Source: Acidobacteriota bacterium
GTDB taxonomy: Bacteria > Acidobacteriota > Vicinamibacteria > Vicinamibacterales > SCN-69-37
Assembly: GCA_020853395.1 (NCBI GenBank)
Contig: JADYYY010000015.1
Location: forward strand, 62,001 to 126,000
DNA: 64,000 nucleotides
Direction of reading: 5' to 3'
Shown here: in pieces, positions 9,403-59,588 of the stretch
Layout: every line of letters begins with the position of its first letter
Numbering within the stretch: the first letter of the stretch is position 1
The notes under the pieces: generated by a model
The model's input: only the letters and a program-made list of their open reading frames with translations
Database searches by the model: none
What the model was told of the DNA's origin: nothing
Program-made: the position numbers and the translations under genes

Positions 9403-9436
9403 CCCGAAGGGCAACGGCGTTCGGACGGCCGCCGGG

Positions 9437-9913
9437 TTAGGTCGACGTCCCGGTGGGCGTCACGCCTGCGGCGGGCTTGCGGGCATAGAGGAGGATCGTG
9501 GCCGTGCCGACGAGCGCCGCGCCGACGATCGCGATGGCGACCCACGGGCGCAGGCGGCCGGCCACCGACAGCACCAGCAGGCTGACCGCCACGCACGACC
9601 ACATGGACGCGAGCGCGGTCACGACCGCCCGCGTCGACATGCCCCGTCCCTCGTCGAGCACCTTCATGTAGCGTGCGAAAATCGGCACGCGAAGCAGCCG
9701 CTGCTCGAGCCACGGGCAGCTCCGCGTGAAGCAGTACGACGCGACGATCAGAAAGATCGTGGTCGGCAGTCCCGGCACGAACACGCCGATCCAGCCGACG
9801 CCGACCGACACGACGCCGACACCGGCGAACGTGAGCCGCCGCAGATCGCGGGTCCACGACATCGGCTGGGCGTCGGGCGGACAGGTCTCTGGGGTCGAGA
9901 TCGCGGGCTTCAT
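9437..9913 (-). CDS. DUF454 (YbaN-like) inner-membrane protein
   Basis: A 158-residue protein of the DUF454/YbaN family with three or four membrane helices. The diagnostic block is VGVGWIGVFVPGLPTTIFL followed by ASYCFTRSCPWLEQRLL, then the segment ending in DEGRGMSTRAV. Function is unknown across the family. A -10-like TAAGAT (9926-9931, minus strand) lies 12 bases before the ATG, giving a very short leader without an SD sequence. Confidence 0.85.
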   Translation of the reverse strand: MKPAISTPETCPPDAQPMSWTRDLRRLTFAGVGVVSVGVGWIGVFVPGLPTTIFLIVASYCFTRSCPWLEQRLLRVPIFARYMKVLDEGRGMSTRAVVTALASMWSCVAVSLLVLSVAGRLRPWVAIAIVGAALVGTATILLYARKPAAGVTPTGTST

Positions 9914-10136
9914 CGCGGACGATTCATCTTAATCCCGGGCGCCGTCCGGCTCGACGTGGCGTTGTGCCCGGCTGCGGCCCGCCGCTCGAGGGCTGCTGGA
10001 TTGGCCGTCCTCCCCCATTCGTGATTTACTGTGCGATGCAGAACAGGCGGGCGTAGCATGGCGACCCTTCCGGCCCCGCAGGGGCGGCCGGCGCGGCGCG
10101 TTCGTGTTCGACCCGAATCGCAGAGGGATACTTGGT

Positions 10137-12527
10137 ATGAAATCGACCAGTCGCACGTTTTCGGTGACGGCTGCCGCACTCACGGTCGCCACCGTCTGTC
10201 TGGGCGCGCTGACAGCGGCACAGCAGCAGAGCAAGGGGCTGCCGGGCGCCAACAGCTCGAACTTCCGGCCGTTCAATCAGATCACGAAGGCCAACGTGAG
10301 CCAGCTCCAGATGGCCTGGTTCTACCCGTATGGCGCGCCGACGTTCAGCCCGGTCTACGCGAACAACATGGTGTACGGGCTGGGACGCAACAACTCCGCG
10401 CTCGTGGCGCTCGATGCGACAACGGGCAAAGAGGTCTGGGTGCACGAAGGGCTGAACGGCATCACCAGCAAGGGCATCAACTACTGGGAGAGCGCCGACG
10501 GCAAGGATCGCCGGCTGATCTTCGCCGTCGACAGCTTCCTGCAGGAGATCGACGCGACCACCGGCAAGTCGATTCTCTCCTTCGGCACGAACGGCATCAC
10601 CGACATGCGCGTCGGGCTTCCGCGCGCGGAAGGCACGAGCCTGCGCGTGATGCCGGCCAGCCCGGGCCGCATCTGGCGCAACACGATCATCTTCGGCGGG
10701 CAGGCCGGCGAGCAGATCATGACGCCGCCCGGCGACATCCGCGCCTACGACGTGCTCACGGGCAAGCTCGTCTGGCAGTTCCACACCGTGCCGCGCCCGG
10801 GTGAGTTCGGCTACGAGACGAACCCGCCCGACGGTTGGAAGTACATCGGCGGCGCGAACAACTGGGGCGAGATGTCGGTCGACGACGAGCGTGGGATCGT
10901 CTACATCCCGACCGGCTCGGCGACCGCCGACTTCTGGGGCGCCGACCGCCACGGGCAGAACCTCTTCGCGAACTCCCTGCTCGCCCTCGACGTCCGCACG
11001 GGCAAGCGGCTCTGGCACTTCCAGACGGTTCACCACGATCTGTGGGACCTCGACAACGTCTCGGCGCCTCAGCTCGTGACGGCCAACCACAACGGCCAGC
11101 GCGTGGACGTCGTCGCCCTCGCCGGCAAGACCGGCTTCCTCTACGTGTTCAACCGCCAGACGGGCGCGCCGATCTGGCCGATCGAGGAGCGCCCGGTGAT
11201 GAAGGGCGAGGTGCCCGGCGAGTGGTATTCGCCGACGCAGCCGTTCCCGACGAAGCCGCCTGCCTTCGCTCGCCAGTCGTTCACCGAGGACGACGTGAAC
11301 CCGAACCTCCTCACGAAGGAGGAATACGAGGCTCTCAAGCTGCGCGTGCGCAACGCGCGGAACGGCACGGGGCCGCAGGGCGGCCTGTTCGTGCCGACAC
11401 AGCTCAACGGCGACTCGATCTCGATGCCCGGCAACCAGGGCGGCTCCAACTGGGGGACGACGGCGGGCGATCCGCAGCGAGGGTTCGTCTTCGTCGCCGG
11501 CGTGAACCAGGTGGCGGTGCTCCGCGTGAACGACATCGAAGATCCCGCGCTGGCGCAGGGCCGCCGCGGTGGTGGCGGCGGCAATCAGGTGAACATGGGC
11601 CAGGTGAACCAGGGCCAGCGGGCGTTCGCGCAGTACTGCGCGGCGTGCCACGGCGCTGACCTCAAGCCCGCGATTCCCGGCGTCCCGTCGCTGCTCGGCG
11701 TGAACGATCGGATCGACGAAGAGAGCATGCGCGTCATCGTCTCCGAGGGCCGGAACAACATGCGGCCCATCCTCGACGTGACCAACGAAGACATCCGCGC
11801 GATCTACGCGTGGCTGACCGTGATGAACCCGGCGGGCCGCGGCGGTGCGGGCCGTGGCCGCGGCGCGGGTGTGCCGCTTCCGCCTGGACCGGTCGTGGCG
11901 AGCGGTGGCGCGCCAAAGCCGGCGCTGCCCGCGCGCTACGGCGGGCCGTTCTTCCCGGGCGTCGGCGGCACGACCGGCAACATGCCGTGGCCGACCGACG
12001 TCGACGCGGCCAAGCTGACGAAGCGCTATCAGTCGGGCTACAACGTCATGGCGACCTCGACGAAGCCGCCCTACACGACCATCACGGCCTACGACCTGAA
12101 CACCGGCGACATCAAGTGGCAGGTGCCGAACGGCGACGATCCGGCGACGGTCGAGCGGACCACGACCGGCGGACCGTGCGACGCGGCCGTTCCCTGCACG
12201 ACCACCGGCGTGCACGACACCGGCGGCGTCGGCGCGCGCAACGGCATGATCGTGACCGGAACCGGTCTGCTGTTCCAGAACGGCAAAGACGGCTGGGCGC
12301 GTGCCTACGACGTGGACACCGGCAAGGTGCTGTGGAAGGGCAAGACCGCCGGCCAGTCGATCGGCATCCCCGAGATGTACATGTCGAACGGCCGCCAGTA
12401 CATCGTGTTCATGTCGCCGCCCGTGACCCCTGGCTCGGTGGCCGGTGCGCAGGGCGGCGGCAACAGCGCCGCCCCCGTCAACCCGACCGGGCCGTACGGC
12501 TACATCGCCTTCGCGCTGCCGAGGTAA
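10137..12527 (+). CDS. Exported quinoprotein dehydrogenase with inserted cytochrome c domain
   Basis: A 796-residue protein with a signal peptide (about 1-28), an eight-bladed PQQ-type propeller and a cytochrome c domain inserted within it. The heme motif is Cys501-Ala-Ala-Cys-His505, with a candidate axial Met in NNMRP. Propeller markers include TGKEVWVHEG, TGKLVWQFHTV and the diagnostic VHHDLWDLDN. It should oxidise an alcohol or sugar in the periplasm and pass electrons from PQQ to its own heme. A Gly/Arg-rich linker (GRGGAGRGRGAG) follows the heme domain. ATG 10137 is chosen because the signal peptide begins there and AGAGGG lies just upstream. A large hairpin follows the stop. The substrate is not predictable. 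Confidence 0.88.
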   Translation: MKSTSRTFSVTAAALTVATVCLGALTAAQQQSKGLPGANSSNFRPFNQITKANVSQLQMAWFYPYGAPTFSPVYANNMVYGLGRNNSALVALDATTGKEVWVHEGLNGITSKGINYWESADGKDRRLIFAVDSFLQEIDATTGKSILSFGTNGITDMRVGLPRAEGTSLRVMPASPGRIWRNTIIFGGQAGEQIMTPPGDIRAYDVLTGKLVWQFHTVPRPGEFGYETNPPDGWKYIGGANNWGEMSVDDERGIVYIPTGSATADFWGADRHGQNLFANSLLALDVRTGKRLWHFQTVHHDLWDLDNVSAPQLVTANHNGQRVDVVALAGKTGFLYVFNRQTGAPIWPIEERPVMKGEVPGEWYSPTQPFPTKPPAFARQSFTEDDVNPNLLTKEEYEALKLRVRNARNGTGPQGGLFVPTQLNGDSISMPGNQGGSNWGTTAGDPQRGFVFVAGVNQVAVLRVNDIEDPALAQGRRGGGGGNQVNMGQVNQGQRAFAQYCAACHGADLKPAIPGVPSLLGVNDRIDEESMRVIVSEGRNNMRPILDVTNEDIRAIYAWLTVMNPAGRGGAGRGRGAGVPLPPGPVVASGGAPKPALPARYGGPFFPGVGGTTGNMPWPTDVDAAKLTKRYQSGYNVMATSTKPPYTTITAYDLNTGDIKWQVPNGDDPATVERTTTGGPCDAAVPCTTTGVHDTGGVGARNGMIVTGTGLLFQNGKDGWARAYDVDTGKVLWKGKTAGQSIGIPEMYMSNGRQYIVFMSPPVTPGSVAGAQGGGNSAAPVNPTGPYGYIAFALPR

Positions 12528-12551
12528 GGCGAGAGACGCTCAGGCTCCTCC

Positions 12552-12597
12552 ACCGCGCTGGCGCCGGTCATCGACGAGTGACCGGCGTCAGCGCGGT
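12552..12597. terminator. Long hairpin between convergent genes
   Basis: Two 19-base arms (12552-12570 and 12579-12597) pair with a single G/T mismatch around an 8-base loop. It lies between the stops of the quinoprotein and the epimerase genes and could terminate both strands. There is no extended T run. Confidence 0.65.
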
Positions 12598-12656
12598 TCT
12601 GGCGCCGACCTCGACGCCATCCCGCCCCGAGCGAGTGCCGGCTCGCTGCCAGCCAA

Positions 12657-13505
12657 TCAAGACCGTGAAGCGATCTGCCGTCGAAGGAAGCGGATGCCGT
12701 CGAACGCGATGGATTCCGGCGACGGCTCGATGTCGCGCCAAATCGCGGCCGCGGCGCTCAGATCGCCCAGCGCGAACCCGAAGCTCTCGATGACCAGCCA
12801 CCCGTCGTAGCCGATCGCCCGGATCGCGGCGAAGACGTCGTCCCACTCGACGTGCCCGGAACCCGGCGTGCCGCGGTCGTTCTCGCAGGTGTGGATGTGC
12901 TTGACGTGGCGGCCGACGCGGCGGAGCCCTTCGGCGATGCTCTTCTCCTCGATGTTCGCGTGGAACGTGTCGAAGAGGACCCCCACCGATGGATGGGCGA
13001 CGGCGTCGCAGAGCGCCGCGGCATCCGCCGCGGTGTTGAGGAAGTACGTCTCGAAGCGGTTCAGCGGCTCGATCGCGAGCGTCACGCCGCAGGCATCGAG
13101 CGTGTCGGCGACCGACTGATAGCCCTCGACGGCCCTGCGCCACTCGTCGTCGGTCCGGCGCCGGCCGGGCAGTTCGCCGACTGGGCAGTACAACGGGCCG
13201 GCGAGCATTGTCGAACCGGCCTCGGCCGTGGCTTCGATTGCGTCACGGAGATGCTGGAGCGATCGGGCCCGCACGGCGACGTCCTCGGCGATGAGGCTGA
13301 GGCCGGGCGTGAAGGCCGAGGTCACCGTGCACTCGAGGCCGTTCGTGCGGCAGGCGTCACGGATGACGCGGGCTGCGAAGGTCGCCGGCCGAAAGAGCGA
13401 CACCTCCACGCCGTCGAAGCCATGCGCTTTGATTCGCGGCAGCACGCCGACGTGCGCTTCGGTGAACTCCGCCGTCCAGATGTACGTCGTCACGCCGCAC
13501 TTCAT
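12657..13505 (-). CDS. Sugar phosphate isomerase/epimerase, D-tagatose/psicose 3-epimerase-like
   Basis: A 282-residue TIM-barrel protein of the xylose-isomerase-like superfamily. The metal-binding residues of ketose 3-epimerases are visible: Glu in IEPLNRFETYFLNT, Asp in LFDTFHANIEEKS, His/Glu in GSGHVEWDD and the final Glu in LVIESFG. It would interconvert ketoses such as D-psicose and D-fructose, or act on a related substrate, in the cytoplasm. There is no signal peptide. The start is the ATG at 13505, only 6 bases after a TATGAT -10 and without an SD sequence, so a leaderless mRNA is likely. It is divergent from the ThuA gene. Confidence 0.85.
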   Translation of the reverse strand: MKCGVTTYIWTAEFTEAHVGVLPRIKAHGFDGVEVSLFRPATFAARVIRDACRTNGLECTVTSAFTPGLSLIAEDVAVRARSLQHLRDAIEATAEAGSTMLAGPLYCPVGELPGRRRTDDEWRRAVEGYQSVADTLDACGVTLAIEPLNRFETYFLNTAADAAALCDAVAHPSVGVLFDTFHANIEEKSIAEGLRRVGRHVKHIHTCENDRGTPGSGHVEWDDVFAAIRAIGYDGWLVIESFGFALGDLSAAAAIWRDIEPSPESIAFDGIRFLRRQIASRS

Positions 13506-13511
13506 GCGCGC

Positions 13512-13517
13512 ATCATA
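13512..13517 (-). promoter_or_regulatory. -10 hexamer of the epimerase (leaderless type)
   Basis: TATGAT on the minus strand, 6 bases before the ATG at 13505. Transcription would begin at or next to the A of the ATG. Confidence 0.6.
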
Positions 13518-13532
13518 CTGTCGATGCCCGGC

Positions 13533-13555
13533 GGCACGGCGCGAGCCGCCGTGCC
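13533..13555. promoter_or_regulatory. Inverted repeat between divergent epimerase and ThuA genes
   Basis: Perfect 9-base arms, GGCACGGCG (13533-13541) and CGCCGTGCC (13547-13555), flank a 5-base spacer. It lies where the -35 of the epimerase promoter should be, which suits an operator better than a terminator. The cognate regulator is unknown. Confidence 0.4.
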
Positions 13556-13630
13556 CAGGCTTTCGAGGATCCGATCGCCGATGCTCGAACGGCCCCGAGG
13601 TGATGCTCTAATAGCTACACAGGAGTCCCC

Positions 13631-14569
13631 ATGAGACCGCTTCGGTTCGCAGCCGGCTGTGTGATCCTGCTCGTGTGTCTGGTGGCCGCAGCGTGGGTCG
13701 CCACCGTGAGCGGCGCGGCGGACGCGCGCATCGTGATCGTCGCGGGCAAGCCGAGCCATCCGCCGGGCATGCACGAGTTCCGGGCCGGTTCGCTGTTGCT
13801 CCAGAAGGCGCTGGCGGGCGTCAAGGGCGTGACCGTGGACGTCTACGCCAACGGCTGGCCGTCGAAGACGGTGAACGGCCAAACGGTGGACGATAGCGCC
13901 GCGCTCGACGGCGCGGCGGCCGTGCTGATCTACGCGGACGGTGGCGCGGGCCATCCCGCCATTCAGCGCGACCACATGGCGATCGTCGACGCGCTCGCGG
14001 CCAAGGGCGTCGGCCTCGGGTTCGGTCACTACGGCGTCGAGGTGCCGGCGGGGGCGACCGGCGAGGCGATGCAGCGCTGGATCGGCGGCTACTACGAGAC
14101 GAACTACTCGGTGAACCCGATGTGGGCGCCCGCGTTCAACAGCTTCCCCCGCCATCCGGTCACGCGCGGCGTCGCGCCTTTCAGCAACCACGACGAGTGG
14201 TACTTCAACATGCGCTGGACGCCCGACCAGGCGGCGCGCGCGCGCATGACGCCGATCCTGACCGCCACGCCGAGCGACGACGTGCGCAAGGGGCCGTACG
14301 TCAGCCCGAAGGGTCCGTATCCGCACGTCATCGCGGACAGCGGCAAGGTCGAGACGATGATGTGGGTGTACGAGCGGGCGAATGGGGGCCGCAGTTTCGG
14401 CTTCACCGGCGGCCACACGCACGCGAACTGGGGCGATCCGAACCAGCGTCGCGTCGTGCTCAACGCGCTGCTGTGGATCGCCCGCGTCGAGGTCCCGCCA
14501 GGCGGCGTGCGGGATGCGATCACGGCCGCAGACCTGACGACGAACCTCGATCCGAAGCCGCAGCGGTAG
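13631..14569 (+). CDS. Exported ThuA-domain protein
   Basis: A 312-residue protein with an N-terminal signal peptide or anchor (about 1-30) and a ThuA (trehalose-utilisation, class I glutamine-amidotransferase-like) domain. Visible family features are IVIVAGKPSHPPGMHEF, LIYADGG, GHYGVE, HPVTRGV and the closing FGFTGGHTHANWG. ThuA domains in exported planctomycete and acidobacterial proteins are associated with sugar oxidation products, but the reaction is not established. ATG 13631 follows AGGAG with a 5-base spacing. Its convergent neighbour is a DUF1080 protein, another family often found with ThuA. Confidence 0.85.
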   Translation: MRPLRFAAGCVILLVCLVAAAWVATVSGAADARIVIVAGKPSHPPGMHEFRAGSLLLQKALAGVKGVTVDVYANGWPSKTVNGQTVDDSAALDGAAAVLIYADGGAGHPAIQRDHMAIVDALAAKGVGLGFGHYGVEVPAGATGEAMQRWIGGYYETNYSVNPMWAPAFNSFPRHPVTRGVAPFSNHDEWYFNMRWTPDQAARARMTPILTATPSDDVRKGPYVSPKGPYPHVIADSGKVETMMWVYERANGGRSFGFTGGHTHANWGDPNQRRVVLNALLWIARVEVPPGGVRDAITAADLTTNLDPKPQR

Positions 14570-42461: not shown

Positions 42462-42785
42462 TCGCAGGACCGCGAGCGATCCGGCGTGCCACCGGCCAGA
42501 TGGGCGAGCATCAGCGCCCGGGTCGTCGGCGCGCGCCGGTCGCTGCGACGCGAGGGCGTGCCGCGCTCGGCCGGCTGATTGGGCTCGCAGTGGCGACGCA
42601 TCCTTGCGTTCGATCGTGTTCTTCACGGCGTCCTCCGCTCCCGTCGTCTCACCCCACCCGAGCCGAGAGCCGATGCGCGGCTTGCCATGTTCGGACGCCG
42701 CGAATATCCTGCTTGGAAATTCAGAGTCCGCGAGTTCGATCCGCAGCGTCGTGCTGCGGTTCACGAGTCGGCTGACGGTGATTCG
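42462..42785. other. Intergenic region with sigma-70 promoter, no gene seen
   Basis: About 325 bp upstream of a large heme-propeller gene. No convincing coding frame on either strand; the long minus-strand open frame across it is a shadow. It contains a two-box promoter at 42692-42720 and a locally AT-richer stretch around it. Confidence 0.5.
42692..42720 (+). promoter_or_regulatory. Sigma-70 promoter of the first heme-propeller gene
   Basis: TTGCCA (42692-42697) and TATCCT (42715-42720) are separated by exactly 17 bp. The leader would be about 60 nt; no strong SD sequence is visible before ATG 42786. Confidence 0.55.
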
Positions 42786-45665
42786 ATGACCAGACCTTCC
42801 ACGACGTTCCGCCGCATCTGGCCCGCGCTCTTGTCCGCGTCCGCGCTGGTGCTGTCGAGCTACAGCTCGCTCGTGCACACGCAGGGCGCCGCGCCGGCTG
42901 GCGCGCAGGCTCCCGCTGGCGGCGCGGGCCGTGGCGCCGGCCGCGGCGGCGAAGGGCAGGGCGGGCGAGCTGGCGGCGCGCCGGCGGGCCGCGGCACGGC
43001 GGCGCCGCCGGCGCCCGGCGTGGCCGACGCGCCCAACGTCGGCGGCGACTACGGCGAGAAGCCGCCAATCCTGGCGCGCCGGCCCGACGAACAGCGCAAG
43101 AGCTTCGTCATGCCGGCCGGCTACACGCTCGAGCTCGTGCTCTCCGATCCGGACATCGTGAGCCCCGCGGTCGTCGCGTGGGACGGCAACGGCCGGATGT
43201 ACGTCGCCGAAGAGCGCAGCTACATGCTCGACGTCGACGCGGGCCGCCAGCACGAGCCCACGAGCCGCATCAGCCTGCACGAGAGCACGAAAGGCGACGG
43301 CGTGTACGACAAGCACACCGTCTTCGCCGACAACCTGCTGTTCCCGCGCATGATCCTGCCGCTCGACAACGGCATCCTCACCAACGAGACGCACTCCGAC
43401 GACGTCCTGTACCTGCAGGACACCAACGGCGACGGCGTCGCGGACAAGAAGAGCGTGTTCTACACCGGCGTCGGTTCCGGCCGCAGCGGCAACGTCCAGC
43501 AGGCGCAGAGCGGGTTCGTCTGGGGACTCGACAACTGGATCTACAGCACGTACAACGCCTTCCGGTTCCGCTGGACGCCGCGCGGCATCGTGCGCGAACC
43601 CTCCGGCCCTCCCGGCGCCGAGTGGGGCATGTCGATGGACGACGACGGGAAGATCTGGCTGGTGAACGCCGCGGGCGAGCGCGGCCCGGCGAACTTCCAG
43701 ATTCCCGTGCAGTACGGCGCGTTCATGGTGCCGGATCAGTGGGAGCCGGGATTCGAGATCCCCTACGGCCTGCCGATGCCGGGCGACTTCCAGGGCGGCA
43801 TGCCGCGCGTGCGGCCGTCGAACGGCAGCCTCGCGCACTTCACGTCGCCGACCGGGCCCGAGGTCGTGCGCACCGACCGGCTGCCGGCGGATCTCAGCGG
43901 CGATCTGCTCTTCGCCGAGCCGGTTGGCCGCATCATCCGCCGCGCGAAGATCGTGAAGACCGACGGCATCACGCAGGTGCGCAACGCGTACCAGGCCGCC
44001 GAGTTCATCGCGAGCAGCGACCCGCTGTTCCGTCCGGTGAACGTCAAGACCGGTCCGGACGGCGCGATCTACATCGTCGACATGTACCACGGCATCATCC
44101 AGGACGCGAACTGGACGGCCAAGGGCACGTATCTTCGCTACAAGATCCAGCAGTACCAGCTCGACAAAGTCGTCGGGCACGGCCGCGTCTGGCGGCTGAA
44201 GTACGACGGCATCCCGGCGGGCGTCGCCGAAGGCGGCGCCGCGACGCAACCGGCCGTGCCGGCGATCGCGCTCGATCGCACGCCGCCGCGGATGCTGAGC
44301 GAGACAGCCGCCGAGCTCGTGGCCCATCTGACGAACCCGAACGGCTGGTGGCGCGATACGGCGCAGCGGCTGCTCGTGCTCAGACAGGATCGGTCGGTGG
44401 TGCCGGCGCTGCAGCAGATGGCGCGATCGTCGCAGAGCCTGGTTGGCCGGTTCCACGCGCTCTGGACGCTCGAGGGCCTGGGGACGCTCGACGCCGGGCT
44501 CGTGCGCGAGGCGATGAGCGACCAGAACCCGCGCATGCGGATCCAGGCGATCCGGGCGAGCGAGTCGCTCTACAAGGCCGGTGACCGATCGTTCGAGAAC
44601 GACTACCGTACCGCGCTCAACGACGCCGACACCGACGTCGTCGTCCAGGCGATGCTGACGCTGAGCACGTTCAAGCCGGCGGACTTCGCCGATCTCGTCA
44701 AGGCGACGCAAGCGGCGAAGACGGCGCGCGGCGTCAAGGCGATCGGCGACTTCCTGCTGACGCCGGCGCCGGCCGTCGCGGGCGCGGGCACGCTCACGCC
44801 CGAAGAGGCGAAGTGGGTCGACGAGGGCAAGCAGATCTACGAGTCGCTGTGCTACAGCTGCCATGGCGGCGACGGCCGTGGCGCGCCGCTGGCTGGCGGG
44901 GCGGCCGGCGCGACGCTCGCGCCATCGCTGGCCGGCTCGCCGCGCATCAACGGCCATCGCGACTACATCGTCAAGGTGCTGCTCAAGGGCATCACGGGCC
45001 CGCTCGGTGAGGGCGCCGGGTCGGACATCATGCTGCCGATGGGGACGAACACGGATCAGTGGATCGCGTCGATCGCCTCCTACGTCCGCTCGGCGTTCGG
45101 CAATCCCGGCGGCATGGTGACGGCCGGCGACGTGGCGCGGCTGCGCGCGGCGACCGCGAGCCGCAAGCAGCCGTGGACGTACAAGGAGCTCGAGCCGACG
45201 CTGCCGCGACGGCTGGAGAACCACGCAGCCTGGAAGCTGTCGGCCAGCCATGGCGCCGAGAACGCGTCCGCTGCGCTGATGGCCGTCCGCCCATGGTCGA
45301 CGAACGCGCCGCAAGCGGCGGGCATGTGGTTCCAGATCGAGCTGCCGCAGCCGGTGAACGTCGCCGAGATCGAGTTCGATTCGCCCGCGCCGGCTCCGGC
45401 GAGAGGCGGTGGGGCCGGGCGAGGCGGCGGAGCTGGCGCGCCGCAGCCGACGTTCCCGCGTGGCTATCAGGTCGAGCTCTCGCTCGACGGCGCGAAGTGG
45501 ACGAAGCCGGTCGCGACCGGCAAGGGCACCGGCGCGCACACCGCGATCGGGTTCACGCCGCAGCGCGCGAAGTTCATCAAGGTCACGCAGACCGACACCG
45601 TCGCGGACGCGCCGGCCTGGGTCATCTCGAGCTTGAAGGTGTACGAGGCAGGGCCGGGCAAGTAA
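42786..45665 (+). CDS. Large exported heme-propeller protein (PVC-type), paralogue 1
   Basis: A 959-residue exported protein with a signal peptide, a Gly/Ala/Arg-rich low-complexity stretch (about 35-75), a six-bladed PQQ-sugar-dehydrogenase-like propeller (about 100-480), HEAT-like helices, a cytochrome c domain with heme motif CYSCH (689-693) and a C-terminal discoidin-like (F5/8 C) domain interrupted by a second Gly/Arg-rich insert. The class is common in Planctomycetes, Verrucomicrobia and Acidobacteria, and probably oxidises a carbohydrate or glycan and passes electrons to heme. The second paralogue (51738) shares the whole layout. Start chosen at the signal peptide. Substrate unknown. 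Confidence 0.85.
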   Translation: MTRPSTTFRRIWPALLSASALVLSSYSSLVHTQGAAPAGAQAPAGGAGRGAGRGGEGQGGRAGGAPAGRGTAAPPAPGVADAPNVGGDYGEKPPILARRPDEQRKSFVMPAGYTLELVLSDPDIVSPAVVAWDGNGRMYVAEERSYMLDVDAGRQHEPTSRISLHESTKGDGVYDKHTVFADNLLFPRMILPLDNGILTNETHSDDVLYLQDTNGDGVADKKSVFYTGVGSGRSGNVQQAQSGFVWGLDNWIYSTYNAFRFRWTPRGIVREPSGPPGAEWGMSMDDDGKIWLVNAAGERGPANFQIPVQYGAFMVPDQWEPGFEIPYGLPMPGDFQGGMPRVRPSNGSLAHFTSPTGPEVVRTDRLPADLSGDLLFAEPVGRIIRRAKIVKTDGITQVRNAYQAAEFIASSDPLFRPVNVKTGPDGAIYIVDMYHGIIQDANWTAKGTYLRYKIQQYQLDKVVGHGRVWRLKYDGIPAGVAEGGAATQPAVPAIALDRTPPRMLSETAAELVAHLTNPNGWWRDTAQRLLVLRQDRSVVPALQQMARSSQSLVGRFHALWTLEGLGTLDAGLVREAMSDQNPRMRIQAIRASESLYKAGDRSFENDYRTALNDADTDVVVQAMLTLSTFKPADFADLVKATQAAKTARGVKAIGDFLLTPAPAVAGAGTLTPEEAKWVDEGKQIYESLCYSCHGGDGRGAPLAGGAAGATLAPSLAGSPRINGHRDYIVKVLLKGITGPLGEGAGSDIMLPMGTNTDQWIASIASYVRSAFGNPGGMVTAGDVARLRAATASRKQPWTYKELEPTLPRRLENHAAWKLSASHGAENASAALMAVRPWSTNAPQAAGMWFQIELPQPVNVAEIEFDSPAPAPARGGGAGRGGGAGAPQPTFPRGYQVELSLDGAKWTKPVATGKGTGAHTAIGFTPQRAKFIKVTQTDTVADAPAWVISSLKVYEAGPGK

Positions 45666-47164: not shown

Positions 47165-47815
47165 CTACTCGGGCGTGTGCGACAGGCTCGCGATGTACTC
47201 CGCGACGGCTTTGATCTCGCTGTCGGTCATGCGTGAGGCGACGAGCCGCATGACGCCCGCGCGGTCGTTCGCGCGTGTGCCTTTCCTGAACTCGTCCATC
47301 TGCACCGTCACGTACGACTGCATCTGACCGGCGATGCGCGGGTAGTTCGGGCTGCCGCCGCCGTCCGCCTGGTGGCATCCCATGCAGTTCGGCACGCCCG
47401 TCGCCGCGTTGCCGTTCTCGTAGAGCTGTTTGCCGGCCGGAAGCAGCGACGGGTCCTCCACGATTCCGGGCACCGGCGCCTGCTTGGCGAAGAACGCCGC
47501 GATCTCCTTGAGTTGCGAGCCGCCGACCACCCCGAGGACCGGCACCATGACGGCGCTCGGCCGCCGGCCGCTTCGGTAGTCCTTGAGCTGTTTGTACAGA
47601 TAGTCCGCGCGCTGGGCGGCGAGAATCGACGCTCCCGGCACGGCGGGCGTGCCGAGCACGGCGTGGCAGGCGATGCAGAGGCGCGGATCGCCGGGATCGG
47701 TGCCTTCCTGCCCGCTGGCCGGGGCGCCGACGGAGAGCACGAGGGCCGCGGCGATCAGCCAGCGTCGCGGGTTCCCCGCAGATCGTCGTGGGGCTCGAGT
47801 GTCGTCGACACGCAT
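47165..47815 (-). CDS. Exported diheme cytochrome c (c4-like)
   Basis: A 216-residue periplasmic protein with a signal peptide and two class I cytochrome domains; heme motifs are CIACH and CMGCH. The candidate axial methionines fit (for example VMVP and RLVASRM). Cytochrome c4-type proteins shuttle electrons between membrane complexes and terminal acceptors. ATG 47815 is chosen because TGAGG, overlapping the MtrB stop, supplies an SD sequence at 6 bases; a GTG at 47827 would overlap that stop. It is the third gene of the decaheme/MtrB operon and is the likely periplasmic link to it. Confidence 0.88.
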   Translation of the reverse strand: MRVDDTRAPRRSAGNPRRWLIAAALVLSVGAPASGQEGTDPGDPRLCIACHAVLGTPAVPGASILAAQRADYLYKQLKDYRSGRRPSAVMVPVLGVVGGSQLKEIAAFFAKQAPVPGIVEDPSLLPAGKQLYENGNAATGVPNCMGCHQADGGGSPNYPRIAGQMQSYVTVQMDEFRKGTRANDRAGVMRLVASRMTDSEIKAVAEYIASLSHTPE

Positions 47816-47823
47816 GGCGATCC

Positions 47824-50550
47824 TCACAGGTCGAGTCGAAACAGCACGCCGCCGACGTGGACCTTGTAGTGCTGCGGCCCGTTGTCGAGGTACACGGCGT
47901 TGTTGGCCGGCGCCGGATTCTCGGCGACGCCGTCGTAGTGCCAGTCCTGGATGCGCCCGCGTTCGTACCGGTAGATGAGGTGGAGGCCGGCGCGCGAGGT
48001 CAACCGCAGCAACAGGTCGACGTCAGCGAGATGCTGGTCGAACACGAGGTCCGACCAGCCGGAGCCCGCGAGCGCGGCCTGAGCGGTGGGAATCGCGAGG
48101 GCGGCGGCGTTGTAGCCGTAGTCGATCGCCGTGCGGCTGCGGATGCGGGTGTAGACGAGATCGAGCGTCGCCCGGCCGAAGCCGTTGTGATAGGTCAGGC
48201 CCGCGGCGTTGTTGCGGTCGCGCTGCGTCACGTTCCAGGCGCGGCTGGTCGGGTAGAGCGGGCTGTCGGCCGCGGCGTTTCCGCAGAGCGACAGCCAGTT
48301 CGACGGCAGCACGAGCTGGGTGGCCACGAGCGTCGTGCCTGCCGGTGCCGCCGGCGCGATGCCGGTCGCGTTCGTCTGGATGGAGCCGTCGCTGAAGAAG
48401 TAGTACGAGTTGCCGAGCACGCAGCCGTTCGGCTGCAGGCCGACCTGGTACATCCGCGAGCGCTGGAAGGAGGCGAACGCGCTGGCGCTCGCGTCATTCG
48501 AGATCTGCCAGGTCACGTCGACGTTCGGCGAGACCTGCCGCTGGTGATCGGCGCGGCCGTAGAGCGATGACGGAAAAGCCGCGTCGCGGGCCAGCAGGCC
48601 GACAGCGGCGTCGACGGACGGCAGCAGGGCCACGTTCAGCCGGGCGTTCGCCGTGTGCTGATTGCGGTCCGCCAGATCGAACTTCCGGAACTGCTCGATG
48701 TTGTGCAGCCAGTTCGCGACGTTGCTGGTCGGCGCCGACGGCAGCGGCCCGAACGAGCCGCTGAGGAACGGCTCGTACGGATCGGCCACGTACTCGCTGC
48801 CGCGCCGGTTGCCGTACTCGTAGGCGAGGCGCAGCGTGCCGTAGTCGAATCCCCGGTTCACGTAGGTGGCCTTGATCCGGTGCTCCCAGGTCTCGTCGCG
48901 CTCGCGATAGGCGCGGTGGAACGCATCGCGTTCGTAGGCGAGCTCCAGGCTGTGATGACGATTCCAGCGATAGTCGGCTGCCACCCGCGCGGTGAGCTGC
49001 CGGTGTTCGAAGGGCATGTTCCGGATGTTGACGTTGCCCGCGGCGGGCACGAGCCCGAGCGCGATCGTGCGCGCCAGGTCGCAGCCCGTGCCGTTGTAGC
49101 CGGTGGCCAGCGTGCCGGCCGGGTTGTTCCCGGCCGTCAGGTTCGGCGTGGCGAACGCTCCGCCGGTGCCGTCGTTGATGAGGCGCCCCCACTGACCCGT
49201 CAACGGGTTGCACGCGAAGAACTCCGTCGAGTTGTTCGTGTCGTAGTAGCGGACCTTCGCGCGCACGTCGAGCGCGTTCGCCGGCCGCAGCGACCAGCCC
49301 AGGTCCACGAGCGTCGTGTCGATCTCGGCACCCGACGTCTTGCGGGTCAGCGCGTCCGTCGTGTTCCACCGGTTGGCGGCTGACACGCCGTTGATGACTC
49401 CGGCCGTGAGCGGCTCGGCCGTCCATGGCAGCAGGTCGTCGTTCTGCTGGAACCGGGCGATCGACACGAGGCCCGTGAATCGGCTGGCGGCGAGCGCCGG
49501 CTGGCTCCGGGCCAGCTCCGCGCGCACGTTGTAGTAGCGGTTGTCCGGCGGCATCGCGTACCGAGCCTGCGTGAACGAGCTCGCCGGGACGCCGGTGATG
49601 GTGTTCAGCGTGACGAACAACGGGTTCTGGATCGTCAGCGTGTCGATGCCGCCGGTGAAGAACGACGCGGTCGCCTGCACGTTCAGGTTCGTGAGCCCGC
49701 GCGCGAACGTCAGCCCGGTGACCACGTCGTTCGTCGTCATGTCGATCGATTCGGGCGCTTCGACGTTGCCGCCGCCACCGCCGCCGCCGAAGACCAGCCC
49801 GAACGGCCGGGATCCCTCACGGCGTTCCCGCGTGTAGCTCGTGTAGAACTTCCAGTTCGCCGGCAGCGTGAGATCGAGCCGGAGGATGCCCTTCTGCCGG
49901 GTGAGGCCGAGCTCGGTCGTCGCCGTGTTGGCCAGCGTGGTCTGGATGGCCGTCTGCGCGGCGGCGGCACTGGCACCGCCGCCAGGCGTCAGGCCCGACA
50001 AGAGGAGCGTGTCGCTGCCGAGGCCCGTCCATAGCGACCGGTAGGTCGTCGTGAACACGTGCGGCGTCTCGTTGAAGCTGCCTCGGAGCCGCCAGGCGTT
50101 GTACTTGCCTGTTCGGACCGTGAGGAACTGGTCGGTGCGTGCGATGCCGCCGCCGAGCACTTCGAGATATCCCGCGGAGCCCGCCTTCTCGAGCGACATG
50201 GCGAAGCTGTCGAGGTAGGCGCCGTTCGACAGGTCTTTGTACTCCTTGAACTTCGCGTTGCCATCGTCGCCGCTGGTGCCGAGCGCGCCGAAGTCCACCT
50301 GGGCGCTGTAGAGCCAGCCGCCGGCCGTCCGGCGCGGCTCCTTCGACCGGGCCGGGGTCGGGATCAGGAATCCGGTCGGCGTGCGCGGAACGTGAGCGAG
50401 GCCCATGCCCACCGGATCGCGTTCCACGACGGCACTGGCGATGCCGGGATTCATGGCGTTGCCGGCGTGCTCCTGGGCGGAGGCCGGGAGCGCCGCGAGC
50501 CCCCACGCGCCGCAGCAGAGCAGGAGGCGTGTCGCAGGACGAATCAACAT
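47824..50550 (-). CDS. MtrB/PioB-family outer-membrane beta-barrel
   Basis: A 908-residue outer-membrane protein of the MtrB/PioB class. It has a signal peptide (about 1-25), a conserved early segment GWLYSAQVDFGALGTSGDDGNAKFKEYKDLSNG, many alternating beta strands with aromatic girdles, and a C-terminal strand ending in GGVLFRLDL. MtrB barrels hold a periplasmic decaheme cytochrome inside the outer membrane. Characteristic MtrB CxxC at the N terminus is not seen. A (Gly)7 run near residue 250 lies in a loop. SD GAGGAGG precedes ATG 50550. The gene starts 13 bp after the decaheme stop and is followed directly by the diheme gene. Confidence 0.88.
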   Translation of the reverse strand: MLIRPATRLLLCCGAWGLAALPASAQEHAGNAMNPGIASAVVERDPVGMGLAHVPRTPTGFLIPTPARSKEPRRTAGGWLYSAQVDFGALGTSGDDGNAKFKEYKDLSNGAYLDSFAMSLEKAGSAGYLEVLGGGIARTDQFLTVRTGKYNAWRLRGSFNETPHVFTTTYRSLWTGLGSDTLLLSGLTPGGGASAAAAQTAIQTTLANTATTELGLTRQKGILRLDLTLPANWKFYTSYTRERREGSRPFGLVFGGGGGGGNVEAPESIDMTTNDVVTGLTFARGLTNLNVQATASFFTGGIDTLTIQNPLFVTLNTITGVPASSFTQARYAMPPDNRYYNVRAELARSQPALAASRFTGLVSIARFQQNDDLLPWTAEPLTAGVINGVSAANRWNTTDALTRKTSGAEIDTTLVDLGWSLRPANALDVRAKVRYYDTNNSTEFFACNPLTGQWGRLINDGTGGAFATPNLTAGNNPAGTLATGYNGTGCDLARTIALGLVPAAGNVNIRNMPFEHRQLTARVAADYRWNRHHSLELAYERDAFHRAYRERDETWEHRIKATYVNRGFDYGTLRLAYEYGNRRGSEYVADPYEPFLSGSFGPLPSAPTSNVANWLHNIEQFRKFDLADRNQHTANARLNVALLPSVDAAVGLLARDAAFPSSLYGRADHQRQVSPNVDVTWQISNDASASAFASFQRSRMYQVGLQPNGCVLGNSYYFFSDGSIQTNATGIAPAAPAGTTLVATQLVLPSNWLSLCGNAAADSPLYPTSRAWNVTQRDRNNAAGLTYHNGFGRATLDLVYTRIRSRTAIDYGYNAAALAIPTAQAALAGSGWSDLVFDQHLADVDLLLRLTSRAGLHLIYRYERGRIQDWHYDGVAENPAPANNAVYLDNGPQHYKVHVGGVLFRLDL

Positions 50551-50563
50551 CGGCTCCTCCTCG

Positions 50564-51496
50564 TCAGCGCTGGAACCGCGCGCCGGCCGGATGGTTGCTG
50601 CCGTGCACGGCGGTGTGGCAGTTCTGACACGAGCGCCCGATGACGCGTGCGCTCTGCGCTCCGCCGACGAGCGCGGACGCGGCCGTCTGGCCGTCCCGGA
50701 AGAACTGCCCGGGATGGCCGACCGGCGGGTTGTGGCACTGCGAGCAGAGATACGGACGCGCGCTCACGAGCAGCTTGTCGTGATTCGAGCCGTGCGGCTG
50801 ATGGCAATTGAGGCAGCTCTCACGAACCGGCGCGTGTTCCCAGATGAACGGGCCGCGCTTCTCCGCATGGCACGCGTAGCAGACGTCGTTCACCGAGTCG
50901 GCCTTGAGCAGCGAGCGCGTCGCCGAGCCATGCGGGTTGTGGCAGTCGACGCACGTCATCTTGCCCTCGAGGACGGGCATGTGCGACCGCTTGCGGAACT
51001 CCGCGCGCTCCTGCGGGTGGCACTGGAAGCAGGTCTCGGTGATGCGCTGCCGCACCAAGGAGACGTCGGCCGACGTCCTGCGCATCGGGTTGTGGCAGTC
51101 GGCGCAGGCGACCTTGTTGGACATGTGCGCCGATCCAGGCCAGTGCAGGCGGTTGCCGCCTTCGTGACAGGTCAGGCACTGGCCGTTCTGCGTCTCGACC
51201 GGCGTACCCCACGCCTTCGTGAAGCCGATGATGAGCGTCTTGTCGACGCCGTTCTTGGCGTGCAGCGATCCCGGCCCGTGACAGGCCTCGCAGCTCCGGC
51301 GCTCGATGTCAGTTCTTGGATTCAGCCGAAAGGCCTTGGCGTGCACCGAGTCGTCGAAGTGCTGGTTCTCCTGTCCGTGGCATTCGATGCACCGGGCCTC
51401 CCCGATGTAAGCCGGCGTCTGTGCCGCGGCCCCGCCGGCGACGAGGCACACCGTGAAGCCTAGGACGAGATTGCGGAGTGCCTGCGCGCCACCCAT
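50564..51496 (-). CDS. DmsE/MtrA/PioA-like decaheme c-type cytochrome
   Basis: A 310-residue periplasmic decaheme cytochrome: exactly ten CxxCH motifs are visible (CIECH, CEACH, CLTCH, CADCH, CFQCH, CVDCH, CYACH, CLNCH, CSQCH, CQNCH) after a signal peptide (about 1-24). The spacing and length match MtrA and DmsE, which form a heme wire through an MtrB barrel. The ATG at 51496 fits the signal peptide; upstream in-frame codons are unconserved. It is the first gene of the operon with mtrB-like and diheme genes. No MtrC-type surface cytochrome is in the window. Confidence 0.92.
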   Translation of the reverse strand: MGGAQALRNLVLGFTVCLVAGGAAAQTPAYIGEARCIECHGQENQHFDDSVHAKAFRLNPRTDIERRSCEACHGPGSLHAKNGVDKTLIIGFTKAWGTPVETQNGQCLTCHEGGNRLHWPGSAHMSNKVACADCHNPMRRTSADVSLVRQRITETCFQCHPQERAEFRKRSHMPVLEGKMTCVDCHNPHGSATRSLLKADSVNDVCYACHAEKRGPFIWEHAPVRESCLNCHQPHGSNHDKLLVSARPYLCSQCHNPPVGHPGQFFRDGQTAASALVGGAQSARVIGRSCQNCHTAVHGSNHPAGARFQR

Positions 51497-51737: not shown

Positions 51738-54608
51738 ATGGCTGTCTGGAGGAATCGCCGAGCAGGCCGTTCCGGTGCGCTCGCACTGTTCGCGTTGGTC
51801 GCCCTCGCGGCGTCCGGCCAACTGCCTGTCGCCAGGGCCCAGGATCAACCAGCGCCCTCCGTGGAGGCGCTCCCGGCCGGCGGCCCGGGCCGCGGCGCCG
51901 CGCAAGGCCGCGGTGTCGTGGCGCCCCCGGCCGGCGCTCGCGGTCAGGGCGGCGCGAACGTCGCCGATCCCGCCAACACGGTCGCGGACTTCACGCCGAA
52001 GCCGCCCGTGACGCCGCTGACGCCGGCCGACGAGGCGAAGCGCTTCATCCTGCCGCCCGGCTTCCGCCTCGAGCTCGTGCTCTCCGATCCCGACATCGTC
52101 AGCCCGGCGACGATCGCCTTCGATGGCAACGGCCGCATGTACGTCGCCGAGATGCGCACGTTCATGCGCGACGCGGACGGAACGGGCCAGATCGATCCCG
52201 TCAGCCGCATCAGCCTGCACGAGAGCACGAAGGGCGACGGCATCTTCGATCGCCACACGGTCTTCGCCGAAAAGCTCGTCCTGCCGCGCATGCTGCTGCC
52301 GATCGATCGGGGCATCCTGATGAACGAAACGCACTCGGACGACGTGGTGCTGCTCACCGATACGAATGGCGACGGCGTCGCCGACGTGCGCAAGGTCTTC
52401 TACACGGGCGTCGGTTCGAACCGCGACGGCAACGTGCAGCACGAGCAGAGTGGCCTCGTCTGGGGCCTCGACAATTGGATCTACACGACCTACAACGCGT
52501 TCCGGTTCCGCTGGACGCCCTCCGGCATCCTCCGCGAGCCCACTGGGCCGAACGGTGCCGAGTGGGGCCTGACGATGGATGACGACGGGAAGATGTGGTT
52601 CGTCAATTCGGGCGGCGAGCGCGGGCCGGTCAACTTTCAGGTGCCGATCCACTACGGGTCGTACAACCTCGCCGACCAGTTCGAGCCGGGATTCGACGTG
52701 GTCTGGCCCGCGCCCGGCATCGGCGACATGCAGGGCGGCATGCCCCGCGTGCGGATGCCGATCGACGCGCTGAACCATTTCACGTCCACGAATGGACAGG
52801 AGATCGTCCGAAGCGATCGCTACCCCGACATGCTCGGCGACCTGCTGTTCTGCGATCCGGTCGGCCGCCTCGTCCGGCGCGCGAAGGTGACCAAGGCCGA
52901 CGGCATCACGGTCCTGAAGAACGCGTATCCGGGATCGGAGTTCATCGTCAGCACCGACCCGCTGTTCCGGCCGCTGAACATCAAGCTCGGCCCCGACGGC
53001 GCCGTCTACATCGTCGACATGTACAACGGCATCATCCAGGACAAGAACTGGACCGGCCGCGGCACGTATCTTCGCGCGAAGATCGAGCAGTACGGGCTCG
53101 ACAAGGCGACGAACCACGGACGCGTCTGGCGGCTGCGGTTCGACGGCCTGCCGGCGGTCGCGGCCACGGCGACGATGCCGGCGCGGCCGGCGGTGCCGGC
53201 GATCGCGCTGGATCGCACGGCGCCGCGGATGCTCGACGAATCGCCGGCGCAGCTCGTGGCGCATCTGACGCACGTGAACGGCTGGTGGAGAGACACGGCG
53301 CAGCGGCTGCTCGTGCTGAAGCACGATCGGACGGTCGTGCCGGCGCTCCAGCAGCTCGCGCGCACGTCGGCCAGCCTCGTCGGACGCTTCCACGCGCTCT
53401 GGACGCTCGAAGGGTTGGGCTCGCTCGATGCGGCGCTCGTGCGCGACGCGATGAAGGACCCGAGTGCCCGGATGCGCGTGCAGGCCATCCGCGCGAGCGA
53501 GACGCTCTACAAGGCCGGCAATCGGACCTTCGAGGCGGACTACCGCGCCATGGCCAGGGACGCCGATCCCGACGTCGCGATCCAGGCCGTGATGACGCTC
53601 AATCTCTTCAAGGTCTCCGATGTCGCGGACGTGGTGAGGACGGCGCAGGACGCCAACCGATCCAAGGGGCTGAAGGACCTGGGCGATCTGATCCTGCGTC
53701 CGCCGGCGGGCCGTGGCGGACGTGGTGCCGTGATGACCGCCGAGCAGCAGCAGTTGATCGATCGCGGCGCGACGATCTACGGCGAGCTGTGCTTCAGTTG
53801 CCATGGAGACGATGGCCGCGGACGGGCTCTGGCCGGCGCCGCGGCCGGCCAGATGATGGCGCCGTCGCTGGCCGGGTCGCCGCGAGTGAACGGTCACCGC
53901 GACTACGTGGTCAAGACGCTGCTCAAAGGGATCGGCGGTCCGATCGACGGGATGTCGTACTCGGAGGTGATGGTGCCGATGGGGATGAACAACGACGAAT
54001 GGATCGCGTCGATCGCCTCGTACGTCCGCACCAGTTTCGGCAATGCGGGCGGCATCGTGACGGCAGCCGACGTGGCGCGCGTGCGCGCGCTCACGACGGC
54101 GCGCCGCACGCCCTGGACGCAGCCGGAGGTCGAGGCGACGCTCCCGCGGCTGCTCGATCCGCAGCCGACGTGGAACGTGACCGCCAGCCACAACAGCGCG
54201 ATGGCGGCCAACGCCCTGTCGATGCGAACGTGGTCGGCCGGTGCACCGCAGGCGGCAGGGATGTGGTACCAGGTCGAGCTTCCCCAGCCGGCGCTCGTGA
54301 CCGAGATCCAGTTCGACGTGCCGGCGGGGCGCGCCGGCGGCGCAGGCGGCCGGGGCGCGGCCGCCGGGGCCGCAGCGCCTCCCGTGCCGTTCCCCAGGAC
54401 GTTCAAGGTCGAGACGTCGGTCGACGGCAAGAAATGGGGGAAGGCCGTCGCCGAAGGCCGAGGTGCGCCGGGCCGCAACGTCGTGGTCTTCGCCCCCGTG
54501 CGCGCGAAGCTCGTGCGCATCACGCAGACCGACGAACGGCCGGACGCGCCCGACTGGACGATGACGAACGTCCGGCTATTCGAGGTGGAGTCGCCGGCGG
54601 CGCGGTAG
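51738..54608 (+). CDS. Large exported heme-propeller protein (PVC-type), paralogue 2
   Basis: A 956-residue paralogue of the 42786 protein with the same domain order: signal peptide, Gly/Arg-rich stretch, six-bladed propeller, HEAT-like helices, cytochrome c (CFSCH, 685-689) and an interrupted C-terminal discoidin-like domain. Segments such as GLDNWIY-TYNAFRFRWTP and AGMW-Q-ELPQP are nearly identical between the two. Differences concentrate in the low-complexity linkers. ATG 51738 follows GGAGG at 6 bases. It is divergent from the decaheme operon, so the two could share regulation. Substrate unknown; electron transfer toward the conduit is inference. Confidence 0.86.
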   Translation: MAVWRNRRAGRSGALALFALVALAASGQLPVARAQDQPAPSVEALPAGGPGRGAAQGRGVVAPPAGARGQGGANVADPANTVADFTPKPPVTPLTPADEAKRFILPPGFRLELVLSDPDIVSPATIAFDGNGRMYVAEMRTFMRDADGTGQIDPVSRISLHESTKGDGIFDRHTVFAEKLVLPRMLLPIDRGILMNETHSDDVVLLTDTNGDGVADVRKVFYTGVGSNRDGNVQHEQSGLVWGLDNWIYTTYNAFRFRWTPSGILREPTGPNGAEWGLTMDDDGKMWFVNSGGERGPVNFQVPIHYGSYNLADQFEPGFDVVWPAPGIGDMQGGMPRVRMPIDALNHFTSTNGQEIVRSDRYPDMLGDLLFCDPVGRLVRRAKVTKADGITVLKNAYPGSEFIVSTDPLFRPLNIKLGPDGAVYIVDMYNGIIQDKNWTGRGTYLRAKIEQYGLDKATNHGRVWRLRFDGLPAVAATATMPARPAVPAIALDRTAPRMLDESPAQLVAHLTHVNGWWRDTAQRLLVLKHDRTVVPALQQLARTSASLVGRFHALWTLEGLGSLDAALVRDAMKDPSARMRVQAIRASETLYKAGNRTFEADYRAMARDADPDVAIQAVMTLNLFKVSDVADVVRTAQDANRSKGLKDLGDLILRPPAGRGGRGAVMTAEQQQLIDRGATIYGELCFSCHGDDGRGRALAGAAAGQMMAPSLAGSPRVNGHRDYVVKTLLKGIGGPIDGMSYSEVMVPMGMNNDEWIASIASYVRTSFGNAGGIVTAADVARVRALTTARRTPWTQPEVEATLPRLLDPQPTWNVTASHNSAMAANALSMRTWSAGAPQAAGMWYQVELPQPALVTEIQFDVPAGRAGGAGGRGAAAGAAAPPVPFPRTFKVETSVDGKKWGKAVAEGRGAPGRNVVVFAPVRAKLVRITQTDERPDAPDWTMTNVRLFEVESPAAR

Positions 54609-57988: not shown

Positions 57989-58025
57989 AGCACGCGGAGT
58001 GCGTTAACTCCGAATGGAGCGCGTC

Positions 58026-59588
58026 ATGGCTTCACGTCGCCGCACATTGATGCTCGTTGCCCTCTTGTCGTCCGCTGCCGCGTTGTCGCCAGGCGCCATG
58101 GTGACGTCCCGCGCGGAGCAGTTTCCGGGCGGGGGCGTGCCGCAAACCCGCGAGGTCCTGCGGCAGTTCGACAAGGACGGCAACGGCCGGCTGAGTGCCG
58201 AAGAGCGCCGAGACGCTCGCGCGTTTCTCGAGACGCAGCCGGCGCGGGGCTTCGGCCGTGGTGGCCGCGGCGGGACGACGGCCGGTCCCGCGCAACCCAG
58301 CCCGAAGTTCGACGCGACGCGGGCGCAGACGTTTCCGGCGTCCGTGTCGTTCTACGACCCCGGCACGCTGCGCACGCTGATCTTCGAGTTCGAGAACGAC
58401 GATTGGGACGAGGAGGTCGTCGCGTTCAACGACACCGACATCGAGGTGCCGGCCACGCTGCGCGTCGACGGTCAGACCTATCGAGACGTCGGTGTGCGCA
58501 CGCGCGGGATGTCGTCCTTCATGATGGTGCCGAAGGACCGCAAGCTCTCGCTGAACGTCACGGTGGACTGGGTGCACGGCAAGCAGGACGTCCAGGGCTA
58601 TCAAACGCTCAATCTGCTGAACGCCAACGGCGATCCCACCTATCTGCGTCCGGTGTTCTATCTGGAGGCGGCGCGCGAGTACATCCCTTCGCCCAGCGCC
58701 AACTACGTCCGTGTCGTGGCCAACGGCGAGAACCGCGGCATCTACATCAACGTCGAGCAGGTGAACAAGTCGTTCCTCGAGCGCTGGTACAAAGTCGAGG
58801 GCGGTTCGCGCTGGAAGGTGCCCGGGAGCCCGAACGGCCGCGGCGGCCTGGAGTACCTCGGCGACGACGTGGCGGCATACCGGCGAATCTACGACATCCG
58901 GACGAAGGACGACCCGAAGGCCTGGGCCGCTCTGATCGCGCTCACGAAGGTGTTGAACCAGACGCCGCCCGATCGGCTCGAGGCGGCTCTGAAGCCCATC
59001 CTCGACGTCGACGAGACGCTCGAGTTCCTCGCGCTGGAGGTCGTGTTCGTCAACAGCGACGGCTACTGGACGCGCGCGAGCGACTACGACATCTATCTCG
59101 ATCCAGCGGGGCGCTTCCACACGCTGCCGCACGACGTGAACGAGGCGTTTCCTGGCGGCGAAGGACGGGGCTTCGGCCCGCCGCCGGGCGAAGGCTTCGG
59201 CCCGCCGCCGGGCGGAGGATTCGGCCCGCCGCCGGGCGGAGGATTCGGACGTGGCGGGCGCGGCGGGCGGATGATGGAGGGCGACGCCACGCTCGACCCG
59301 CTCGTCGGGCTCGACGACGCGTCGAAGCCGCTGCGGTCGAAGCTCCTGGCTGTTCCGGCGCTCCGCAGCCGCTACCTGGGCTACGTGCGGGCGATCGCGA
59401 CGAAATGGCTCGACTGGAACCGGCTCGGCCCGCTGGCCGCGAAGTACCAGGCGCTCATCGCGGCCGACGTGAAGGCCGACACCCGCAAGCTCTACAGCGT
59501 CGAAGCGTTCGAGTCGGGCGTACAGGATCTCCGGGCCTTCGTGGAGCGGCGTCGCGCCGTGCTGCTCGGGGAGACGCCGAGCCGATGA
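58026..59588 (+). CDS. Exported CotH-family protein with EF-hand
   Basis: A 520-residue exported protein. After the signal peptide comes one EF-hand loop, DKDGNGRLSAEE (49-60), a Gly/Arg-rich segment and a CotH kinase-like domain: SVSFYDPGTLRTLIFEFENDDW, VGVRTRGMSSF, YQTLNLLNANGDPTYLRP and DYDIYLDPAGRFHTLPHDVNEAF. A run of GFGPPPGG repeats and RGG residues interrupts the domain before the C-terminal helices. CotH kinases phosphorylate spore-coat or surface proteins in some bacteria; the exported setting is unusual for a kinase. The ATG at 58026 follows GGAG at 6 bases. It overlaps the VTC gene (ATGA). Confidence 0.85.
   Translation: MASRRRTLMLVALLSSAAALSPGAMVTSRAEQFPGGGVPQTREVLRQFDKDGNGRLSAEERRDARAFLETQPARGFGRGGRGGTTAGPAQPSPKFDATRAQTFPASVSFYDPGTLRTLIFEFENDDWDEEVVAFNDTDIEVPATLRVDGQTYRDVGVRTRGMSSFMMVPKDRKLSLNVTVDWVHGKQDVQGYQTLNLLNANGDPTYLRPVFYLEAAREYIPSPSANYVRVVANGENRGIYINVEQVNKSFLERWYKVEGGSRWKVPGSPNGRGGLEYLGDDVAAYRRIYDIRTKDDPKAWAALIALTKVLNQTPPDRLEAALKPILDVDETLEFLALEVVFVNSDGYWTRASDYDIYLDPAGRFHTLPHDVNEAFPGGEGRGFGPPPGEGFGPPPGGGFGPPPGGGFGRGGRGGRMMEGDATLDPLVGLDDASKPLRSKLLAVPALRSRYLGYVRAIATKWLDWNRLGPLAAKYQALIAADVKADTRKLYSVEAFESGVQDLRAFVERRRAVLLGETPSR
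59169..59240 (+). repeat. Three 24-bp tandem repeats inside the CotH gene
   Basis: Three near-identical 24-bp units (59169-59192, 59193-59216, 59217-59240), each encoding GFGPPPGG or GFGPPPGE, with a partial fourth. In frame and GC-rich, so copy number could change by slippage without breaking the gene. Confidence 0.85.

Follow-up and report, generated by a model that had tools for sequence, protein, structure and literature searches.

This study identified three consecutive genes that, with a probability of roughly two in three, form one operon for an outer-membrane electron wire, in which a decaheme cytochrome would sit in an MtrB/PioB-type barrel and a diheme cytochrome c4 would act as the periplasmic carrier. 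The genes lie within the window, that is, the whole stretch of 64,000 nucleotides that was analyzed. An earlier note on this DNA had proposed an outer-membrane conduit without MtrC, and the family models, the homologues of solved structure, the phylogeny, and the conserved gene order all supported that proposal. As judged from these comparisons, the trio most likely represents an electron conduit of the MtrAB type through the outer membrane, in which c4 serves as the periplasmic relay; we infer both the assembly of the proteins into a complex and the role of c4 as the partner of the conduit.

The three genes are located on the minus strand and encode a DmsE/MtrA-family decaheme c-type cytochrome (50564-51496; 310 aa, ten CxxCH motifs), an MtrB/PioB-type outer-membrane beta-barrel (47824-50550; 908 aa), and a diheme cytochrome c4 (47165-47815 when counted from its ATG; two CxxCH motifs). 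The coordinates confirmed the arrangement originally described, namely consecutive genes on one strand with gaps of 13 bp between the decaheme and barrel genes and 8 bp between the barrel and c4 genes. Plausible signal peptides, as judged by eye, were present at the start of all three proteins, that of the decaheme being MGGAQALRNLVLGFTVCLVAGGAAAQ. Shine-Dalgarno-like sequences precede the barrel gene (GAGGAGGAG) and the diheme gene, where GAGG is located six bases upstream of the ATG; an alternative GTG start of the c4 gene at 47827 would produce a 4-bp overlap with the barrel stop. Promoter and terminator scans found none. The GC and GC3 values of the trio were those of the neighboring genes; a foreign base composition was thus rejected, and composition lends no support to a recent transfer. 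The E-values given below and the conservation of the gene order elsewhere rule out chance as an explanation of the observation.

The decaheme protein scored 265.8 bits against TIGR03508, the DmsE family model (cut-off, 192.2), which covers MtrA-like proteins generally and also the paralogue in the window genome. A phmmer comparison with MtrA (6r2q_A) returned E = 6.6e-64 over an alignment from residue 32 to the end, and all ten CxxCH motifs, at residues 36, 69, 107, 131, 156, 182, 206, 228, 251, and 290, aligned with MtrA. The ten-CxxCH cytochrome recognized from the letters alone was therefore upheld by the motif count, the family model, and the strong homology to MtrA. Among 35 aligned decahemes, MtrA included, the ten CxxCH histidines and eight other histidines were invariant, which fits the need of bis-His ligation. 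Two related decaheme genes at other loci (L110, 5686-6633; L121, 7262-8308) were each broken by a single in-frame TAG, which in L110 falls within the third CxxCH; these stops are probably point mutations or assembly errors.

The barrel covered nearly the whole of the Pfam model MtrB_PioB (PF11854) with 294.5 bits and matched MtrB (6r2q_B) with E = 7.8e-09. Its homology to the MtrB/PioB type, as first assigned, is thus clear, although the score against NCBIfam TIGR03509 (213.1 bits) was under the cut-off of 240. The reported lack of an N-terminal CxxC also held, and a search through the whole window barrel found no CxxC anywhere. Its standing as an unusual feature did not hold, since an N-terminal CxxC was present in 0 of the 22 other barrels examined from the clade described below as clade A and in 2 of 26 barrels outside it; the absence is ordinary in both groups and was rejected as a special trait. 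AlphaFold2 predictions of the barrel and the decaheme, run on two-row alignments only, gave mean pLDDT values of 26 and 33. When the barrel was used to search genome contigs, only Methylobacter luteus matched. A search of plasmid records yielded one Photobacterium match (36%).

The third gene, described in the earlier note as encoding a c4-like diheme protein, proved to encode a canonical cytochrome c4, as judged by its homology to the c4 structures 6q2u (E = 3.2e-30) and 1etp (8e-27, residues 44-215). Methionines follow each haem site (94; 193/200). The score against the NCBIfam PdsA model was 60.4 bits against a cut-off of 330, where PdsA-like relatives themselves reached only 163 and 125 bits, and a branch with 100/100 support separated the c4 proteins from the PdsA-like proteins in the tree; identification of the protein as PdsA was therefore rejected. 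Because it bears a signal peptide, this cytochrome c4 is expected in the periplasm, and it tells little about the partner outside the cell. The earlier suggestion that MtrC is missing and that the diheme protein replaces it, with an altered acceptor or complex, was accordingly divided: the absence of an MtrC match stood, whereas the substitution by the diheme was rejected.

The absence of MtrC was assessed in a genome of 4.28 Mb that is 99.9% complete and in which no protein matched TIGR03507, the MtrC/OmcA family model. A search for paired CxxCH motifs found nothing with more than five hemes beyond two decahemes, and a codon-restricted CxxCH pattern with follow-up of clusters gave the same result among the matches listed, although this pattern misses motifs written in other codons, and a divergent surface cytochrome could escape it. 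The search for MtrC-like or multiheme surface proteins recommended at the outset thus returned no such protein among the matches listed. No more than two MtrB-family barrels in the genome passed the search threshold, namely that of the trio and one on contig C2. The second MtrAB locus (L010; C2:170000-189999, positions 8655-13700) encodes a decaheme, an MtrB-family barrel, a monoheme cytochrome c, and a protein that has five CxxCH motifs and a NapC/NirT-type region and for which NrfH is the best NCBIfam match. This monoheme and NapC/NrfH-like set is comparable to that of the Mto locus and is absent from the trio, and the L010 decaheme, unlike that of the trio, groups with relatives of its own phylum. 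The oxidase genes of the genome comprise three of the aa3 type and one that is divergent.

The distribution of the decaheme was patchy. Among 396 genomes of the phylum, one close match (73%) was found, in a genome of the same family (G004); other matches in the phylum reached at most 49% over long matches, short partial ones excepted, and G007, which belongs to the same genus group as G004, contained no decaheme match. Identities of 54-55% were observed in five Methylococcales genomes, including Methylobacter luteus (55%), and of 50-57% in 26 genomes from a different order of the class that includes Methylobacter luteus, with a gap down to the next group at approximately 45%. In a tree of 102 rows, 33 decahemes formed one side of a branch with SH-aLRT 99, which we term clade A; the barrel tree contained the same split with a support of 100, and the joint decaheme and barrel tree recovered clade A at 100/100, which indicates that the decaheme and the barrel travel as a pair. 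Clade A comprises the window, the one same-family genome, and otherwise Pseudomonadota, and its Pseudomonadota members were separated from the window and G004 in the joint tree (89/88). The window decaheme fell in a different clade from MtrA, the sole reference with a known function in the tree, from which MtoA, PioA, and DmsE were absent. This patchy distribution suggests that the locus moved between phyla.

The gene order was conserved across the two phyla. A c4 gene followed the barrel gene on the same strand in 14 of the 24 clade-A loci examined, consisting of the window, G004 (in which the barrel gene is interrupted by a contig break), and 12 loci from 11 genomes of the other order; the loci are related, and these counts are hence not independent. 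The remaining ten loci, five of them from Methylococcales, had no adjacent c4 gene. Outside clade A, none of 26 loci contained a c4 gene in the trio position, and two had PdsA-like dihemes nearby. In the c4 tree, the trio c4s of the other order formed a clade of their own (88/85) apart from the other c4s of those genomes, and the window and G004 c4s paired at 100/99. The c4 tree neither established nor rejected a single origin of these two sets of trio c4s (AU p 0.22), and the joint tree of decahemes and barrels did the same for one clade uniting all conduits with c4 (AU p 0.23). The window genome and G004 each contain one c4 copy, and a search of eight further genomes from the family or order at E <= 1e-8 returned none; judged from these comparisons, this distribution fits the arrival of c4 with the conduit or its recruitment to it.

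An all-against-all comparison of open frames found no neighbor beyond the trio that was common to most clade-A loci, and no quinol dehydrogenase was conserved with the trio across them. Individual loci had neighbors of their own. In Methylobacter luteus (L042, 1878-6911), four tandem, related monoheme cytochromes of approximately 340 aa are encoded upstream of the clade-A decaheme and barrel, and the other Methylococcales clade-A loci contain one or more related copies. An open frame of 1170 aa at L166 (4086-7595), which contains two CxxCH motifs and weak beta-propeller matches, is located directly upstream of a clade-A decaheme gene; its product could be a surface redox enzyme.

In the mechanism that we propose, the decaheme would be held inside the MtrB-like barrel and would conduct electrons across the outer membrane without MtrC, whereas c4 would be a soluble periplasmic carrier dedicated to electron exchange with the decaheme at its inner end. 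The electrons would come from the oxidation, at the cell surface, of a donor outside the cell (for example, Fe(II), a mineral, or a reduced organic compound), and c4 would then pass them to an aa3-type oxidase. We give this inward flow to the aa3 oxidases an approximately even chance. The lean toward it derives from the lack of a quinol dehydrogenase in the trio, where the paralogue locus has a candidate, from the presence of aa3 oxidases, and from the precedent of Acidithiobacillus, in which the c4 Cyc1, together with rusticyanin, carries electrons from the outer-membrane Cyc2 to an aa3 oxidase (PMC10654088). For MtoD of Sideroxydans, too, a terminal oxidase rather than ImoA may be the recipient of the electrons (PMC13390432).

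Flow in the opposite direction, in which electrons from the quinol or cytochrome c pool would pass through c4 and the decaheme to Fe(III), humics, or a different acceptor under oxygen limitation, is possible but doubtful. The precedent of PdsA argues for it, since this periplasmic diheme cytochrome travels with mtrCAB and cymA or netBCD and is established as part of pathways that lead outward (PMC8805035). MtrAB alone, without MtrC, can moreover reduce Fe(III) in Shewanella (PMC4245776), and the NapC/NrfH-like protein of the window genome could feed c4, although it is encoded at the other locus. However, the third gene of the trio encodes a canonical c4 that is well separated from the PdsA-like proteins, no quinol dehydrogenase accompanies the trio, and c4 cytochromes in general have high potentials and donate electrons to oxidases.

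Two further explanations concern the partners of the conduit. Instead of a mineral, the trio may serve a surface enzyme or an extracellular substrate that is soluble or organic, in the way that DmsEF serves the DMSO reductase; we consider this reading unlikely. The NCBIfam assignment to the DmsE family, the 1170-aa protein of L166, and the PVC-type haem proteins flanking the window trio favor this explanation. Nevertheless, the DmsE model is not specific among MtrA-like proteins, a scan of genes next to the trio revealed no molybdopterin reductase of the DmsA/DmsB type, and no listed neighbor was common to most clade-A loci. It is also quite improbable that c4 adjoins the conduit by chance or through shared regulation and mainly serves, for example, the oxidases while the conduit uses another periplasmic carrier. 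The ten clade-A loci without an adjacent c4 gene and the c4 trees, which show no single origin, are consistent with such an arrangement. Against it stand the identical order and strand in two phyla, the finding that the trio c4 is the sole c4 in the window genome and in G004 and that the eight related genomes contain none, and the separation of the other order's trio c4s from housekeeping c4s.

The conduit with c4 as its periplasmic relay, which remains our preferred reading, resembles several described systems. It shares with MtrAB of Shewanella (6R2Q) a decaheme and a barrel of the same families with ten aligned CxxCH motifs, but its genome has no MtrC/OmcA match, its decaheme belongs to another clade, its third gene encodes c4, and its barrel has no CxxC. 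MtrC-less conduits such as MtoAB and PioAB are well known. MtoAB(D) of Sideroxydans and PioABC of Rhodopseudomonas likewise combine a decaheme and a barrel with a small periplasmic carrier encoded nearby; that carrier is the monoheme MtoD/PmcA or the high-potential iron-sulfur protein PioC, whereas the third gene of the trio encodes a diheme c4, and the trio locus contains no CymA/ImoA, MtoC, or monoheme MtoD. PdsA of Vibrio and Aeromonas is also a periplasmic diheme encoded with an MtrAB-type conduit, but it belongs to another subfamily than c4, and its loci have MtrC and a quinol dehydrogenase. In the rus operon of Acidithiobacillus (Cyc2, the c4 Cyc1, rusticyanin, and aa3 oxidase), an outer-membrane cytochrome conduit similarly feeds a diheme c4; Cyc2, however, is a fused cytochrome-porin, and the trio has no rusticyanin or oxidase genes. 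The trio differs from DmsEFAB in having no DmsA/DmsB-type molybdopterin reductase among its immediate neighbors. The Methylobacter cluster 02045-02048 (PMC13322032) also encodes an MtrA/DmsE decaheme, an MtrB/PioB barrel, and partner cytochromes, which in that case are two monoheme cytochromes; L222, a locus outside clade A, matches this cluster by gene layout only.

Decaheme-barrel conduits without MtrC (Mto and Pio) and PdsA as a diheme partner are already known, whereas the decaheme-barrel-c4 set as its own clade appears to be undescribed in the papers searched, which covered the literature in part. Tentatively, the trio may constitute a third MtrC-less uptake system besides Mto and Pio, an interphylum cassette in which c4 would deliver electrons directly to an aa3 oxidase and which the window genome would use in addition to a second conduit that is linked to quinones. 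Studies of MtrAB-type wires have usually dealt with systems that also have MtrC and a quinol dehydrogenase. The c4 trio, which is conserved and has neither, makes it possible to test cleanly whether the direction of electron flow is set by the partner in the periplasm, which previous studies left open (PMC8805035, PMC13390432), and it adds a genome with two different conduits, each with a different set of partners.

The immediate neighbors of the trio were PVC-type and TauE genes. The two PVC-type haem-binding proteins flanking the trio region (42624-45665 and 51738-54608, both on the plus strand) exhibited DUF7133, cytochrome c domain, and weak F5/8 C-type matches, and the gene at 51738-54608 is divergent from the decaheme gene. 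Farther away in the window, we observed a PQQ-dependent dehydrogenase with a C-terminal cytochrome c domain (10104-12527, plus strand; PF01011, 496 bits) and a CotH kinase family protein (58014-59588, plus strand).
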